Source of the DNA: Roseiflexus sp.
GTDB lineage: Bacteria > Chloroflexota > Chloroflexia > Chloroflexales > Roseiflexaceae
Assembly (NCBI GenBank): GCA_017743475.1
Contig: JAGHYV010000004.1
Span: forward strand, 25,813-89,812
DNA length: 64,000 bases
Direction of reading: 5' to 3'
This document shows positions 32,883-39,367 of the stretch, piece by piece. The number at the start of each line of letters is the position of its first letter. Within the stretch, counting starts at the first letter, position 1. Both the position numbers and the translations under genes were made by a program. The notes beneath the pieces are model-generated. The model made no database searches and was not told the origin of the DNA. It worked only from the letters and a program-made list of their open reading frames with translations.

Positions 32883-33577
32883 CAGCACATAAACTCGTTC
32901 TCTGGGATATTGATGGCACGCTGCTCTACAGCGGCGGCGTTGCGGGCGAAGCGATGCGCGCCGCAATGACGCGCGTCTATGGTCGCCCATCTGTCAATGA
33001 ACGGCGCTCCTACGCTGGCAAAACGGATCAGCAGATCATCCTCGAGACCTTCCCGGAACGTTCACCGGAGGAACTGCTTGGCCAGCTTGATGAGTTTACC
33101 GCTGCCTACCTGGATATCCTGAGTGCGTGGGAGGATGCATTTCGCACCCGCGGGCGCATCCTGGAAGGCGCAATTGAAATCCTGCAACGACTGCGTGCCA
33201 GAGGGGTTGTCCAGTCATTGCTGACCGGGAATCTTGCACCAGTAGCGCATCTCAAACTGCGCATGATGAATCTCGTTGAGTTTTTCGACTTCGAGATCGG
33301 CGCATATGGCAGCGACAGTCCGCGCCGCACGGATCTCCCCTCGATCGCGGCAGAGCGTGCTGCCCGGCGCTATGGACGTGTCTTTGCCGGACCCGACATT
33401 GTTATCGTTGGAGACACGCCAAACGACATTGCATGCGCACGCGCCGTCGGTGCACGCGCCGTGGCAGTTGCGACTGGTCCGTTTGGCGTCGAAGAACTGC
33501 GTACGCATGCCCCTGATGCAGTACTCCCCGATCTCACCGATACCAGCGCTGCGCTGACAGCCATACTTGCTCAGTGA
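32879..33577 (+). CDS. HAD-superfamily phosphatase (phosphoglycolate phosphatase-like)
   Basis: The 232 residues show HAD motifs: LVLWDIDGTLLYSGG (motif I with nucleophile and acid-base aspartates), SLLTGNLAPVAHLKL (motif II Thr), a Lys-free middle, and VIVGDTPNDIACARAVGARAVAVATG (motif IV, DTPND). A C1-type helical cap lies between motifs I and II. Such enzymes remove phosphate from small metabolites, often phosphoglycolate or sugar phosphates; the exact substrate is unclear. The ATG overlaps the preceding stop. The motif order is complete. Confidence 0.88.
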   Translation: MTAHKLVLWDIDGTLLYSGGVAGEAMRAAMTRVYGRPSVNERRSYAGKTDQQIILETFPERSPEELLGQLDEFTAAYLDILSAWEDAFRTRGRILEGAIEILQRLRARGVVQSLLTGNLAPVAHLKLRMMNLVEFFDFEIGAYGSDSPRRTDLPSIAAERAARRYGRVFAGPDIVIVGDTPNDIACARAVGARAVAVATGPFGVEELRTHAPDAVLPDLTDTSAALTAILAQ

Positions 33578-33730
33578 AGCAACGGCTTCAGGAGCGTTTC
33601 CGGTGCAGCTCCTGCACAAGAATTTGGTCTTCCTCTTTCCAGCGTTCAACCTTTCTACCACATCGTGATCAATCAGGATGCATTCCCGCCGAGGCGCACC
33701 ATAGCGGCAACCCCGAACCAACAACGAAAT
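33578..33730. other. intergenic stretch between convergent HAD and flp genes
   Basis: There is no gene in this 153-bp stretch. It contains a copy of the GTTCAACC repeat word near 33642. The overlapping plus-strand track ORF 33574-33972 is antisense to the pilin gene and is a shadow. Confidence 0.6.
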
Positions 33731-33756
33731 CGCCCCCCTGGTTACCCAGAGGGGCG
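33731..33756 (-). terminator. intrinsic terminator of the flp pilin gene
   Basis: On the minus strand an 11-bp stem CGCCCCTCTGG/CCAGGGGGGCG (one G-U pair) with a GTAA loop is followed by ATTTCGTTGTT. It starts 25 nt after the flp stop codon and would make flp monocistronic. Confidence 0.75.
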
Positions 33757-33780
33757 GCGACCAACGAGCGCGAACCGATA

Positions 33781-33939
33781 CTAGCGGCTCAGACCACTAT
33801 TGATCTGGCTGAAGACCTGGCTGACGCGGTTGCCAAGCAGGGTGAGGATACCGATGACAACGATGGCGATCAGCACGAGGATGAGTGCGTACTCAACCAG
33901 ACCCTGGCCTTCTTCCCTGGCGAAGAAACTGCGAACCAT
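33781..33939 (-). CDS. flp: Flp/Fap-type (type IVb) pilin
   Basis: This gene is too short for the ORF track. The minus strand encodes 52 residues from an ATG at 33939 with a strong AAGGAGG site: MVRSFFAREEGQGLVEYALI, then a hydrophobic helix LVLIAIVVIGILTLLG and a short tail ending NSGLSR, stop TAG. The Glu at +5 of GQGLVEYAL and the hydrophobic helix are hallmarks of Flp pilins processed by a TadV/CpaA prepilin peptidase (cleavage expected before or near GLVEY). It has its own promoter and terminator. Tad assembly genes (tadA, B, C, Z) are not in this window. Confidence 0.92.
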   Translation of the reverse strand: MVRSFFAREEGQGLVEYALILVLIAIVVIGILTLLGNRVSQVFSQINSGLSR

Positions 33940-33987
33940 TGCGAAACCTCCTTAGAAATTGGGTTGAACTAAATGAACCACAACCCT

Positions 33988-34016
33988 AGTATAGACATCG
34001 GATCCCTGGTTCTCAA
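33988..34016 (-). promoter_or_regulatory. flp pilin promoter
   Basis: The minus strand shows TTGAGA (34016-34011), a 17-nt spacer and TATACT (33993-33988), 49 nt before the pilin ATG. It is a strong sigma-70/A match, in keeping with abundant expression of a structural subunit. Confidence 0.78.
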
Positions 34017-34200
34017 TAGGCAATCAGTCCCAAAAAAAAGACGGTACTCTGTGAACGCTCTCTTAGGAAACGGGTAGGACTTTTGGGCGATACGATAACG
34101 GGTAGAAGCGATAACAGGCAGAGCCTGGCAAAACGACCAGAGAGCCCCACAGCTTGGACAGTCCGCTGGCTTCAAGGCAATGTTCTTTTCTCTAGCATTC
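34017..34200. other. gap upstream of the flp promoter
   Basis: No coding sequence is seen. It contains an A-run and a repeated word ACGATAAC / GCGATAAC at about 34090-34110, which could be a regulator site. The DegS-like kinase gene ends at 34201 on the same strand. Confidence 0.4.
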
Positions 34201-35277
34201 CTACATCGGTAGGGGGATCAACGCTTCGACGCGCGTACCACGTCCGATGGCGCTTTCGATGCCGAACTCACCGCGGAGCAGCGTTTCGACCTGTTGACGG
34301 AGTGTGGCGATTCCCATGTTGCGCCGTCCGCTGTCATCAGCCAGCACGTCGCTGACGTGGAATCCGCTGCCGTCATCCTCGACCGATACGTGGATCATGC
34401 GCGTTCCACCAACATCATCGCGCACGCTGACAAGCACGCGCGCCTGGGTGGCATTAGCATGCTTGATGACATTGTTGAGCGCCTCTTGAATAAAGCGAAA
34501 AATGGCGACTTCGTAGTGGGAAGGCAGGCGCATATCAAGATTCTGCACCATCAGGTTGATGTCGAGTTTGTTCTTTTCGCTTACCTGCTGAACATAGCGG
34601 CGTAACGTCGGCGCAAGACCGAGATCGTCGAGGATCATGGGGCGGAGATCGAAGATGAAGCGGCGCGTGTCCTGGAGGGTGGCATTAATGGCATGTTTGA
34701 GAGCGCCAAGCTCAGCGCGCGCCATCTCGACATCGCGGTCAAGCAGACGCTGGCAGATTTCAGCACGCAGCACGAGGTTGCTCATCGATTGCGCCGGACC
34801 GTCGTGCATCTGCAGCGAGATGCGCAAACGTTCTTTTTCCTGCGCCTGAATAATATCAGCGATCAACTGGTCGCTTCCAATCATCCCAGGCGCACTGCCG
34901 GAGGGTGCAGCAATGCCCAGCAGTGGTTCGAGCGCAGTGATCAGTTCAAACACCTGACTCTGCCGTTGTTTGGTGGCCTGCTGACGATATTGCAGTTGCT
35001 CAAGCTGGCTGCGCATCGTCAGGAGACGCATTTGCACCTCCTGCGCCGAAGCATAAAAATTCTTAATGTCCGCCTTGCTGTACCGATCAATATTGACATC
35101 CAGATCACGCAGGCGATTTGAGACGGCCAGTTCGCGTTGCTGGAGTTTTTCGACCTCGTTGGAAGTTTGCCGCAAAAGTGCTTCGATCTCGATCAGTTCC
35201 TTGCGCGCTTTTTCCAAATCGGCATTCAATTTATCGTAGAGTTCTTTGATAGATGGCGCAGTATCATTCACCGTCAC
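34201..35277 (-). CDS. DegS-like soluble sensor histidine kinase
   Basis: This protein of 358 residues has no membrane helix. The first about 125 residues are a long coiled coil (LNADLEKARKELIEIEALLRQTSNEVEKLQQRELAVSNRL), like the sensor part of Bacillus DegS. Then comes HisKA_3 with EKERLRISLQMHDGPAQSMSNLVLRAEIC (phospho-acceptor histidine in MHDGPAQ) and an HATPase with EALNNVIKHANA, DDGSGF and GIATLRQQVETLLRGEFGI. These kinases pair with NarL/DegU-type regulators, but no such gene is adjacent. It lies upstream of the pilin gene on the same strand, but the pilin has its own promoter in the 260-bp gap. Confidence 0.92.
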   Translation of the reverse strand: MTVNDTAPSIKELYDKLNADLEKARKELIEIEALLRQTSNEVEKLQQRELAVSNRLRDLDVNIDRYSKADIKNFYASAQEVQMRLLTMRSQLEQLQYRQQATKQRQSQVFELITALEPLLGIAAPSGSAPGMIGSDQLIADIIQAQEKERLRISLQMHDGPAQSMSNLVLRAEICQRLLDRDVEMARAELGALKHAINATLQDTRRFIFDLRPMILDDLGLAPTLRRYVQQVSEKNKLDINLMVQNLDMRLPSHYEVAIFRFIQEALNNVIKHANATQARVLVSVRDDVGGTRMIHVSVEDDGSGFHVSDVLADDSGRRNMGIATLRQQVETLLRGEFGIESAIGRGTRVEALIPLPM

Positions 35278-35353
35278 AACAGCCTCCAGAGCGCAGCTTT
35301 GGCAGAATTACAAAGGCAATCGCCGGGTATTATACCACCCTCGACGACTGCCT

Positions 35354-36109
35354 TCATAGAGAACAGAACCGAAGCCGCCAGACGTTGATCAGCGCTTCGA
35401 GGACAATACGCTTCGACATCTTCGAGCACCCGACACGCCGGTCTGGAAAGATGATCGGCAGTTCGCCAATACGAAAACCAGCGCGCATGGTGCGATAGAC
35501 CAGTTCGATCTGGAAAGCGTACCCGTTCGACTGAATATCATTAAGATTGATGGTCTCCAACACCCGACGCCGATAGCAGCGAAAACCGCCAGTCGCATCC
35601 ATGACTGGCAGCCCCAGGATCGCACGGGCATAGAGGTTGCCGCCACGACTGATCATCTGCCGGACGATCCCCCAATCGGTCGTGCCGCCGCCCGGAACAT
35701 AGCGTGAACCGATTGCCAGGTCGTAGCGCGTTTCGGCGGCTGCCAGCAACTGCGGCAGGTATGCCGGATTGTGGGAAAAATCGGCGTCCATTTCGCAGAT
35801 GTATGCCGCGCCTTCAGCAAGCGCGCGGCGAAAACCGGCGATGTAGGCGCTGCCCAACCCGCGTTTCTCCGGTCGCAGCAACAATCCGACACGTGGCTCC
35901 TCGGCAGCCATATCTGCCACAATGCTAGCAGTCCCATCGGGCGAATTGTCATCGACGACCAGCACCCGGAAGCGTGACATCTCCAGGATGCGCCGGATGA
36001 GTTCCGCGATGTTCTCGCGTTCGTTGTAGGTCGGAATAACAACCGTGCAGTCAGCCAGCCCGATATCAATGAACGCTCGTTTTTGCGTGATCGGTTGCGG
36101 CAACGTCAT
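35354..36109 (-). CDS. polyprenol-phosphate hexose (mannose-type) synthase, GT2
   Basis: The 251 residues match dolichol-phosphate mannosyltransferase-like GT2 enzymes: CTVVIPTYNERENIAELIRRIL, VLVVDDNSPDGTASIVADMA, CEMDADFSHNPAYLPQLLA (DAD) and DLAIGSRYVPGGGTTDWGIVRQMISRGGNLYARAILGLPVMDATGGFRCYRR. It lacks the C-terminal membrane helices or GtrA domain of some relatives. The product would be a polyprenyl-phosphate-linked sugar used by GT-C transferases outside the membrane. The ATG at 36109 has AAGGAG in front. The two predicted membrane proteins on the opposite strand begin about 250 bp away and could use its product. Confidence 0.9.
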   Translation of the reverse strand: MTLPQPITQKRAFIDIGLADCTVVIPTYNERENIAELIRRILEMSRFRVLVVDDNSPDGTASIVADMAAEEPRVGLLLRPEKRGLGSAYIAGFRRALAEGAAYICEMDADFSHNPAYLPQLLAAAETRYDLAIGSRYVPGGGTTDWGIVRQMISRGGNLYARAILGLPVMDATGGFRCYRRRVLETINLNDIQSNGYAFQIELVYRTMRAGFRIGELPIIFPDRRVGCSKMSKRIVLEALINVWRLRFCSL

Positions 36110-36363
36110 GCGATCTCCTTGCCAGCACACAAAGACCCAAAACTGGCGCGGTTGATCTACCAGCGCCTGTCCATTATACTCGTCACATCGCCTCCTGCGC
36201 GATCACGATCATGACGCGAGAAGGTAGCAAAACGGCAACAAAATTGTCCGCCAGAAAGCGCTCTCTGCTCGTTTCGGGACGTATCTGGGGCGGACCCAGA
36301 GCAACGATTGATACAGCTGTGCGTCGCACGAACACGTCTGTGCTTCGTACTGTTGGGGGACTC

Positions 36364-37857
36364 ATGCGTAATGCGCCGTTCCCTGCGCTTATTCATCTGT
36401 ACGGCCTGATCCCCCTGGCCGTGGTGGCAGCGCTGATCACGCTAGCGCCAACCGATCCGCACGATTTCTGGTGGCATCTGCGGGTGGGGCAGATTGTAGC
36501 CGAAGCGGGTGTACCGCGCACCAACATGTTTGCCTGGACTGTTCCGCCTGATCAACCGTTCGTCTACGCTGCCTGGCTTAGCGACTGGCTCTTCTATCAG
36601 ATGTATCTCATCTACGGGTTGCAGGGTCCGGTGCTGGCGCGCAATATCCTGGGAACGCTCGCGTTTGCGCTGGTATTGTTGGAAGCCTGCCGACGCAGTG
36701 GTTCGTGGCGTCTGGCTGGGCTGGCGGTTTTCCTGGCAGGGATGATGACGATTAACAATCTGACGACGCGCCCGCAGAACTGGGCATGGGCGCCGTTTAT
36801 GGCGTATGCGATCATTCTTGGCGCATATGCGGCAAAGCAGGTAGGATGGCATGCGCTGCTAGCGTTGCCACCGTTGATGGTTTTCTGGGTGAATGCGCAC
36901 GGCTCATTCGTGTTGGGGCTGGCGCTGCTGGCCCTGCACGGCATTGGCGAGGGGACGCGAGCCCTCTTGCGACACCCGGATGCGCCCGATTTCCGCCGTC
37001 TGATAGCGCTTGTGGTGGCAGCGCTCGCAACATTGGCTGCCACCCTGGTCAATCCGATCGGCGCCGATATTTTCGCATACGTTGTGAAATTATTAACCGA
37101 TCCGCCGAGCCAGAGGTTGGTGAACGAGTGGCAACCGCCAACCGTGCGGAGCCTAGCAGGTCAGGTGTTCTTTCTGGCGACGCTGTTCCTGATCGCTGCG
37201 CTGGCGCTTGGTCGGCGGCGTTTGAACCTGACCGATACGTTGCTGTTGTGCGCCTTCTTGTGGCTGGCGTGGAGCGGCATGCGCTATGTGGTCTGGTTCG
37301 GCATGCTGGCAATGCCGATGCTGGCGCAGTGTCTGGCGCGTCCTTCGTCGCAAGCTGCCGCGCAACGCGGAGACCTGTTCGCCGCAATCATTGCGCTTAC
37401 CCTGGTTCTTGGGGTCGGCGCGCTGCAACCACCGTTCAAGTCGTCACTCAACCTGCCGGAATCCTACCAGGGTTTGTTCGCCGATGTGCCAGGAGCGCCA
37501 CTGCTCTACAGCGCCGACACGCCGGTCGGGGCGGCTGCGTACCTGCGCGATCATCCTGGCGGTCGGCTGTTCAACGATATGGCGTATGGTTCGTACCTGA
37601 TCTGGGCGCTTCCTGCGCCGCAGGTGTTCGTCGATACACGCGTCGAACTTTACCCGCTGGCGCTGTGGGAAGATTACCTGGCGCTCGGCGAAGCGCGTGC
37701 GTATCGCACCCTGATCGAACAGTACGGCATTGATCGGGCGCTGCTCAGTCGATCACGGCAGGCGCCGCTCGTCGCTGCACTGGCTGCCGATCCGTCCTGG
37801 GTTATCGAGTACGAGGATCGGTATAGTATTCTGTACCGACGTGTTGAAGAAAGGTAG
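36364..37857 (+). CDS. multi-pass membrane protein, first of two tandem paralogues
   Basis: The 497 residues have about ten to eleven hydrophobic helices. The first external loop has DPHDFWWHLRVGQIVAEAGVPRTNMFAWT, a middle motif WVNAHGSFVLGLALLALHGI, then NEWQPPTVRSLAGQ and, near the C-terminus, NDMAYGSYLIWALPAPQVFVDTRVELYPLALWEDYLAL. The layout, with an acidic/histidine motif in the first loop, resembles GT-C-type glycosyltransferases, but I cannot name a family. The ATG at 36364 is preceded by GGGGGA; the track start 51 codons upstream lies in the divergent promoter area. The next gene, 10 nt on, is a clear paralogue. Confidence 0.85.
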   Translation: MRNAPFPALIHLYGLIPLAVVAALITLAPTDPHDFWWHLRVGQIVAEAGVPRTNMFAWTVPPDQPFVYAAWLSDWLFYQMYLIYGLQGPVLARNILGTLAFALVLLEACRRSGSWRLAGLAVFLAGMMTINNLTTRPQNWAWAPFMAYAIILGAYAAKQVGWHALLALPPLMVFWVNAHGSFVLGLALLALHGIGEGTRALLRHPDAPDFRRLIALVVAALATLAATLVNPIGADIFAYVVKLLTDPPSQRLVNEWQPPTVRSLAGQVFFLATLFLIAALALGRRRLNLTDTLLLCAFLWLAWSGMRYVVWFGMLAMPMLAQCLARPSSQAAAQRGDLFAAIIALTLVLGVGALQPPFKSSLNLPESYQGLFADVPGAPLLYSADTPVGAAAYLRDHPGGRLFNDMAYGSYLIWALPAPQVFVDTRVELYPLALWEDYLALGEARAYRTLIEQYGIDRALLSRSRQAPLVAALAADPSWVIEYEDRYSILYRRVEER

Positions 37858-37867
37858 CGTTCCATCT

Positions 37868-39367
37868 ATGACCTCGCCTTCGACCCTCGAATCCGTTCCA
37901 AAACCGCAGGCGCGTCTGTGCCCAACGCTTGATCAGGTATATGTGACGGCTGCGTTGATGCTGATTGCGCTTCGCCCCTTGTTAACCCCCATTCCGCCGC
38001 ACGACTTTTGGTGGCATATGGCAACCGGGCGCGCGATCATGGAGACTGGAACGATCCCGCAGAACGATCTTTTCTCCTATACCCGCGCTGGCGAGCCGTT
38101 TTTTAATCAGGGATGGCTGGCGCAATTGTTGATGGCACTGATCCATCGGATCGGCGGATTGCCGTTGATCATCGTGGTGCAGGCGCTGGTGCTGGCGCTG
38201 GCATATGGGCTGCTGCTCCGTCTCTGCATCCTGTGTACCAACCGGATCCGGGCGTGCGTGGCAATTCTGCTGCTGGTGACTATGCCACTGTCGTTCGATA
38301 ACTGGACGGTCCGCCCGCAAACGTATGTATTCCCACTGTTTGCCGGGTTTCTGACAGTGCTGACCGAGTACCGTCTTGGAATGGCGCGTCGCCTGTGGTT
38401 GCTGCCGATCATCATGGCGTTGTGGGTGAATATGCATGGCTCGTTTGTGCTCGGTTTAGGACTGATCGGCATCGTCTTCGCCGGCGAAACCATCAAGCGC
38501 TGGCGTGGCGCGCCAGGTCCCCGTATGGATGTACCGCTCATCGTGTGGGGGGCGGCAACCGCAGCCGCAACGCTCCTCAACCCGCGCGGCGTTGAGGTGC
38601 TGGGGTATGTGACAAACCTGATTGGCAGCAGTCAGGTGACCGATCTGGTCACGGAGTGGTCGCCGCCGACTGTTCGAGACATCAATGGCGTCATCTTCTT
38701 CCTGTTTCTGATCGTCGCCGCTCTCACACTGATCTATGCGCGCACCCGACCCGACCTGACCGATCTGATGCTGTTTGGTGCGTTTCTCTGGCTGGCGCTC
38801 GGCGCCACGCGCAATATCGTGTGGCTGGGGTTTGTGGCAACGCCGCTTCTGGCAGTTCAGGCAACGACATTGCTGCCACCGCCGCCACAACGCCGGTTCC
38901 AGGGCATTCCGACAATGAATATAGCACTCATCGGTCTGCTAGCGCTGATCCTGCTGATTGGCTCACCCTGGGTAAAGCCTGCCCTCTTGCCGCCCGAAAC
39001 TGGCGCCTTACTCGCAAAGGGCACGCCAGTTGAGGCGACGCGAGCGCTTCAGGAATTGCCACAACGACCGCAGCGACTGTTTCATGCCATGAGTTACGGT
39101 TCGTATCTGATCTGGGCAGCGCCGGAACAGAAGGTCTTTATCGATCCGCGTATCGAGTTATATCCGTTCGAGCAGTGGCGCGACTACATCTTGCTGGGGC
39201 AGGGAGTTGAAGTTGAGGCGCTGCTGGCAAAATACCGCATTGACGGCATGATGCTGAGCATCGAAGAACAGGCACCGCTGCTGGAATACGCCCGCACCCA
39301 CGCCAACGTGTGGCGCGAGGTGTACGCAGACGAAGAGACAGTGGTGCTGGTGCGATCAGGGGGATAA
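37868..39367 (+). CDS. multi-pass membrane protein, second tandem paralogue
   Basis: This 499-residue protein repeats the architecture of its upstream neighbour: PPHDFWWHMATGRAIMETGTIPQNDLFSYT, WVNMHGSFVLGLGLIGI, TEWSPPTVRDINGVIFFLFLIV, ARTRPDLTDLMLFGAFLWLALGATRNIVW and MSYGSYLIWAAPEQKVFIDPRIELYPFEQWRDYILLGQG. The shared motifs in the first loop and at the C-terminal soluble end are likely functional sites. It is probably a polyprenyl-phosphate-sugar-dependent transferase, by inference from topology and the nearby synthase. The track start is 46 codons too early, inside the upstream gene. Confidence 0.85.
   Translation: MTSPSTLESVPKPQARLCPTLDQVYVTAALMLIALRPLLTPIPPHDFWWHMATGRAIMETGTIPQNDLFSYTRAGEPFFNQGWLAQLLMALIHRIGGLPLIIVVQALVLALAYGLLLRLCILCTNRIRACVAILLLVTMPLSFDNWTVRPQTYVFPLFAGFLTVLTEYRLGMARRLWLLPIIMALWVNMHGSFVLGLGLIGIVFAGETIKRWRGAPGPRMDVPLIVWGAATAAATLLNPRGVEVLGYVTNLIGSSQVTDLVTEWSPPTVRDINGVIFFLFLIVAALTLIYARTRPDLTDLMLFGAFLWLALGATRNIVWLGFVATPLLAVQATTLLPPPPQRRFQGIPTMNIALIGLLALILLIGSPWVKPALLPPETGALLAKGTPVEATRALQELPQRPQRLFHAMSYGSYLIWAAPEQKVFIDPRIELYPFEQWRDYILLGQGVEVEALLAKYRIDGMMLSIEEQAPLLEYARTHANVWREVYADEETVVLVRSGG

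Follow-up and report, generated by a model that had tools for sequence, protein, structure and literature searches.

A stand-alone flp gene in Roseiflexus and a promoter element common to it and to unlinked tad genes

Can a reading frame of 52 codons, far from any tad cluster, encode the pilin of a Tad pilus, and how would its expression be matched to that of a machine encoded elsewhere? The question is raised by the minus strand of a 64,000-nucleotide stretch of Roseiflexus DNA (the window, meaning here the whole stretch analysed), part of a genome of 206 contigs that is estimated to be 100% complete. The first-pass annotation had described at this place an overlooked Flp pilin of 52 residues with its own promoter and terminator; "overlooked" is true of the mechanical ORF track, which shows an antisense ORF instead, and is limited to that track.

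The flp gene and its signals

The translated ORF, MVRSFFAREEGQGLVEYALILVLIAIVVIGILTLLGNRVSQVFSQINSGLSR, matches the Pfam family Flp_Fap (PF04964) marginally, at 32.2 bits, equal to the curated gathering cut-off of 32.2 (E 9.6e-8); in a six-frame scan of the genome the same profile scored flp at 31.0 bits, just below that cut-off, and no NCBIfam profile exceeded its cut-off against the product. The nearest solved structures by sequence are Tad pilins, PDB 8u2b (E 8e-4) and PDB 8u1k (PilA, E 2e-3), which match over residues 15–50 and resemble the product in Pfam family, size, hydrophobic helix and the motif G^XXXXEY; unlike the genes of such Flp/Fap pilins, flp of the window stands alone, far from the tad cluster and next to a histidine kinase gene. 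The 52-aa product contains the processing region EEG^QGLVEYALILVLIAIVVIGIL, with the G^XXXXEY motif, and a single hydrophobic helix; EEGQGLVEYALILVL is present in all but one relative examined. Cleavage is predicted as MVRSFFAREEG^QGLVEY..., with E at +5 and Y at +6, which would leave a mature Flp of 41 aa.

Flp matches were found in 47 of 60 related genomes, the relatives falling in the order of Herpetosiphon, Chloroflexus-type bacteria and Oscillochloris. Identity is 96–98% within the genus and mostly 65–96% across the order Chloroflexales, where the N-terminal half of Flp hardly varies. When the window was compared with six relatives (five of the same genus, one of the same family), pS was 0.13–0.34 and pN 0.009–0.051, i.e., the synonymous proportion was ~5- to 30-fold above the non-synonymous one, and substitutions were mainly at third positions; judged from these alignments, flp is under strong protein-level constraint in the genus. 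Because pS greatly exceeds pN in the flp frame, this frame is taken as the protein-coding gene and the 132-aa antisense ORF at 33574–33972 (+) as incidental. The antisense ORF is open and longer, but the family match, the codon-position pattern and the conserved promoter and ribosome-binding site all lie on the minus strand; the ORF was rejected as a real gene, and the converse reading, with the pilin frame as the incidental one, deserves practically no credence. The pilin proposed by the first-pass annotation is thereby upheld, and the pilin itself is ordinary: its family is known, and flp and tad genes have already been published for relatives.

Many relatives carry tandem flp pairs 59–263 bp apart (loci L135, L137, L138, L139, L140 and L148), and the window has a single copy. 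The proteins of a pair are identical, the copies differing by 0–7 synonymous and 0 non-synonymous changes, which suggests gene conversion or recent duplication.

The signals around flp are listed in Table 1. Scans of single sequences say little about them: TTGAGA-17-TATACT (34016..33988) was the sole promoter-like site in the 1.4 kb scanned, against 0.7 expected by shuffling, and the hairpin (33756..33731) the sole terminator-like site, against 1.0 expected, which is no better than chance. Their conservation in relatives, on the other hand, is clear. The blocks CTATACT, CTATTGAG, AGTACC and GGGACT are invariant in six relatives, and an RBS-like purine run is retained; in the genus alignment, inspected by eye, the hairpin stem is preserved by compensating substitutions (e.g., CGCCCC/GGGGCG versus CACCCC/GGGGTG). 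The strong ribosome-binding site and the separate transcription unit proposed earlier for flp find support; a terminator-like hairpin is also present, but outside 33781–34016, the interval to which the terminator had been assigned.

Table 1. Features of the flp locus, with positions in the window.
Feature	Position	Strand	Evidence
flp, 52-aa Flp/Fap (Tad) prepilin, ATG start	33781..33939	-	PF04964, orthologues, PDB relatives, pN << pS
Ribosome-binding site AAGGAGG, 7 nt before ATG	33947..33953	-	Sequence; RBS-like purine run kept in relatives
-10 box TATACT (CTATACT invariant in six relatives)	33988..33993	-	Scan and conservation; consensus spacing
Proximal element GGGACT-N6-CTATTG (RGDACY-N6-CTATTG), 20 nt before -10	34014..34031	-	Genome pattern scans
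Distal box AGTACC, 17 bp upstream of proximal box	34043..34048	-	Spacing conserved at flp promoters
Terminator-like hairpin, 11 pairs, weak T-run, 25 nt past flp stop	33731..33756	-	Scan; stem conserved
DegS-like histidine kinase (HisKA_3, HATPase_c, DegS sensor), same-strand neighbour immediately upstream of flp	34201..35277	-	Pfam; adjacency to flp in relatives

The tad genes and a promoter element in common

The first-pass annotation had named a lack of tad genes in the genome as grounds against the pilin; this objection falls away, as a search found them in a cluster on contig C179. Profile searches identified tadE, tadE (with a PA14 domain), tadG, rcpC, tadZ, tadA, tadB and tadC there, so that TadA, TadB, TadC, TadZ, RcpC and TadE/TadG are all on one contig; the RcpC match, at 27.9 bits, is just under the cut-off of 28.8. 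A dedicated TadV peptidase was not found in the genome, where one A24 prepilin peptidase of PilD-like size is encoded on contig C136; it may act in place of TadV. TadZ (L042:15184-16473) has a full receiver domain (E 2e-28), whose acidic pair, phospho-acceptor Asp and Lys are visible in the sequence; since the domain is seemingly complete with all catalytic residues, TadZ may be a phosphorylation target.

Further genes of this type were observed in the same genome. A divergent second tad-like locus (L041, contig C147) encodes TadE, a SAF-domain protein, a ParA-like protein, two T2SSE ATPases that differ from each other and another two proteins not recognised by Pfam T2SSF, and a further T2SSE (TadA-like) ATPase (L043:8168-9601, contig C144) lies away from recognised tad genes. 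The second Flp-like gene, flp2 (L045:4662-4892, contig C143), is conserved in the genus and encodes 76 aa with a longer N-terminus.

Alignment of flp upstream regions revealed the blocks AGTACC, GGGACT, CTATTG and TATACT, and the full pattern, derived mainly from these regions, is RGDACY-N6-CTATTG-N20-TATAMT. A pattern of such kind together with the -10 box occurred in 33 of 83 flp upstream regions, compared with 0.015 expected from first-order Markov resampling; in 169 kb of the window's own genome, matches to related patterns were confined to the promoters of flp and tadE and to the region upstream of flp2. A scan of 60 genomes with RGDACY-N6-CTATTG-N19..21-TATAMT yielded 57 sites in 31 genomes, 31 of them before flp, 25 before tadE or tadG and 1 elsewhere, while the reversed pattern, used as a control, gave 0 sites in the 60 genomes; flp sites were assigned by position relative to the flp matches of each genome, and tadE/tadG sites by position. 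As the pattern was taken from flp promoters, the flp part of these counts is circular and the sole independent sites are those of tadE/tadG and flp2; the window's own tadE site had been seen before the scan, which leaves the remaining tad sites as independent evidence. The sole strict match with no recognised pilus gene downstream is L205:551 (G033:C241:20850).

A second scan covered 748 kb of named loci; every one of its 31 sites stands before flp or tadE, with 0 for the control, in a set that was fetched by its flp genes and is biased towards them, and that partly overlaps the 60 genomes (several loci are the same). About 8 of these loci belong to Anaerolineae or other Chloroflexota outside Chloroflexales. 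The 18-mer taken without the -10 box had 5 matches in the own genome versus 7 for the reversed control and is specific only together with the -10 box or by position; two of its matches, on contigs C152 and C191, are near no pilus gene and were treated as chance occurrences.

The arrangement of the element bears on how it may work. The TTGAGA (34011–34016) that the first-pass annotation had taken for the -35 box overlaps CTATTG of the conserved element, TTG being common to both, and at flp2 the element, conserved in the genus, stands ~10 bp (one helical turn) nearer a TG-extended -10 TATAAT. Given this overlap and this shift, TTGAGA is more probably one half-site of an operator than an ordinary -35 box; of the promoter proposed earlier, the conserved -10 TATACT stands and the -35 assignment gives way. 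In the window's genus and in Chloroflexaceae most flp promoters have a second box 16–17 bp upstream, which occurs at flp in many genera; tadE promoters are without it. The sequence comparisons suggest that the element is a putative operator rather than a -35 box and, since it is common to flp, the tadE operon and flp2, would place the unlinked pilus genes in one regulon.

Could the pattern instead be the promoter class of an alternative sigma factor? CTATTG sits at the place of a -35 box, and its 20-nt spacing to TATAMT is nearly fixed. The shifted 18-mer at flp2, however, suits an operator set in helical phase better, the extra box is found at flp only, and the -10 box is of the ordinary TATAAT type; we therefore consider a sigma factor unlikely, if worth keeping in mind, and retain the response-regulator operator. 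That flp is a relic or spare pilin unused by the C179 machine, with flp2 or another gene providing the real pilin, might be supposed from its separation from the tad genes and from the second Flp-like gene on contig C143. Strong purifying selection, 96–98% identity in the genus, the promoter element held in common with tadE and the frequency in relatives of tandem flp duplicates with identical proteins make this highly improbable.

Kinase, regulator and the control of the pilus genes

The first-pass annotation missed the adjoining kinase and the regulon. Among 44 kinase-bearing genomes (E <= 1e-60), the kinase adjoins flp (flp within 1.1 kb downstream on the same strand; the flp copy compared was hand-chosen in each genome and is a 66% copy in G011) in 26, that is, in 26 of the 28 where both are on one contig; in a genome of 5 Mb, chance alone would place a neighbour at 2 kb or less about once in 1000. 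The two genes are on different contigs in 16 of the 44 genomes, through contig breaks in some and, in others (family f2 and genus g17), probably through true unlinking.

Other genes of the neighbourhood (34201–39367) were also observed to be kept. In several further families of the order, a GT2 glycosyltransferase (35354–36130, -) stays by the kinase–flp pair, and so do two related proteins of 545–548 aa (36211–37857 and 37730–39367, +), the first of which has no Pfam match.

In the window's genus only the kinase adjoins flp, and no response regulator lies beside the kinase. A fuller arrangement is seen in a locus of the Anaerolineae type (L086), where, by Pfam, a histidine kinase, a NarL regulator, a DegS-like kinase, flp, tadE, tadE and tadG follow one another in a row; by similarity, the same cluster is present wholly or partly in four further loci (L082, L083, L090 and L094). 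The best match of the L086-type regulator in the window's genome (52%, E 1.5e-81) adjoins the best match of the first kinase, on contig C169, and the C169-type regulator is retained at 75–99% identity across most of the order; NarL regulators being numerous, the assignment of the C169 pair rests on best hit plus gene order. Histidine kinase and regulator genes are in this way tied to flp and tad, by the kinase beside flp and by the Anaerolineae order kinase–regulator–kinase–flp–tadE. On the simplest reading, the pilus cluster of an ancestor came apart in Chloroflexales, giving three pieces, namely, kinase–regulator, kinase–flp and the tad cluster, the direction of the change being our inference.

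Across the 60 genomes kinase, regulator and flp co-occur, in the direction that the two-component model predicts; most genomes that lack them come from a single clade (g8), and the pattern accordingly reflects few independent events. This clade, a small-genome genus of the same family (G012, G015 and G017–G025), had no matches to flp, the DegS-like kinase, the C169-type regulator or the control element.

The pilin, the tad cluster, the element held in common and the adjacency of the kinase are established from sequence. Together they argue for an unlinked Tad-pilus regulon with flp as the major prepilin, a shared element and, most likely, two-component control, a reading that we regard as probable. 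The flp product would serve a Tad (type IVc) pilus as its major prepilin, to be cut after Gly11 by a prepilin peptidase, for which the C136 enzyme is a candidate, and polymerised by the TadA/B/C proteins of contig C179. A signal would be sensed by a two-component system, through the DegS-like kinase by flp and/or the kinase–NarL pair on C169; the phosphorylated NarL regulator would bind RGDACY-N6-CTATTG just upstream of the -10 box and bring in polymerase at flp, flp2 and tadE. That flp has two boxes would be in keeping with a promoter that is stronger, or set differently, for the subunit of greatest abundance.

The flp-side kinase might alternatively have the receiver domain of TadZ as its target and control assembly or position of the pilus, with transcription set otherwise. 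The full receiver domain with its acidic pair, phospho-acceptor Asp and Lys would fit, as would the lone position of the kinase in the window's genus, but its Anaerolineae homologue adjoins a DNA-binding NarL regulator and the promoter element is common to flp and tadE; we consider this unlikely too and prefer transcriptional control by the two-component system.

Known systems and the biology of the pili

Two described systems are similar in outline. In Pseudomonas aeruginosa the two-component system PprA-PprB, with a regulator of the NarL family, directly activates flp/tad (PMC3510237), the likeness being one of function; the genes for the PprAB kinase and regulator are part of the tad locus itself, whereas here flp, the tad cluster and the kinase–regulator pair are on three contigs. 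In Pectobacterium a two-component system is encoded beside flp/tad and its adjoining regulator raises flp and tad transcription (PMC3767616), but the proteins are an OmpR-type regulator and a BaeS-type kinase, unlike the NarL/DegS type of the present genome.

For filamentous Chloroflexota themselves, a passage of PMC7332563 lists flp and tad genes for R. castenholzii, C. aggregans and 'Ca. Viridilinea mediisalina', with the same gene set as here (rcpC-tadZABC, tadEEG, flp), and proposes Tad pili for surface motility and a role in gliding; it also reports pili for relatives without naming the subunit. The promoter element, the kinase by flp and the split regulon do not figure in that passage. 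In the literature searched, beyond whose reach most subscription journals lay, no description was found of a Chloroflexi Flp/Tad regulon, nor of the operator and how far it extends phylogenetically, of the split arrangement or of the kinase–flp pair.

Tad pili are a published candidate for the gliding of filamentous Chloroflexota (PMC7332563); adhesion or surface movement would be the role expected of the pilus considered here. We lean, with a little more confidence than doubt, towards a wider proposal: in Chloroflexales and at least part of Anaerolineae, Tad pili would be under a dedicated and ancient two-component regulon with a diagnostic operator, the genes having become dispersed over the chromosome in Chloroflexales but held under common control by the operator, and the flp-side DegS-like kinase would be the sensor that switches on surface pili and, perhaps, gliding. 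An element that marks flp and tad genes order-wide allows pilus genes to be found where genomes have them scattered or unannotated and, together with the candidate kinase and regulator, offers a handle on when the pili are made.
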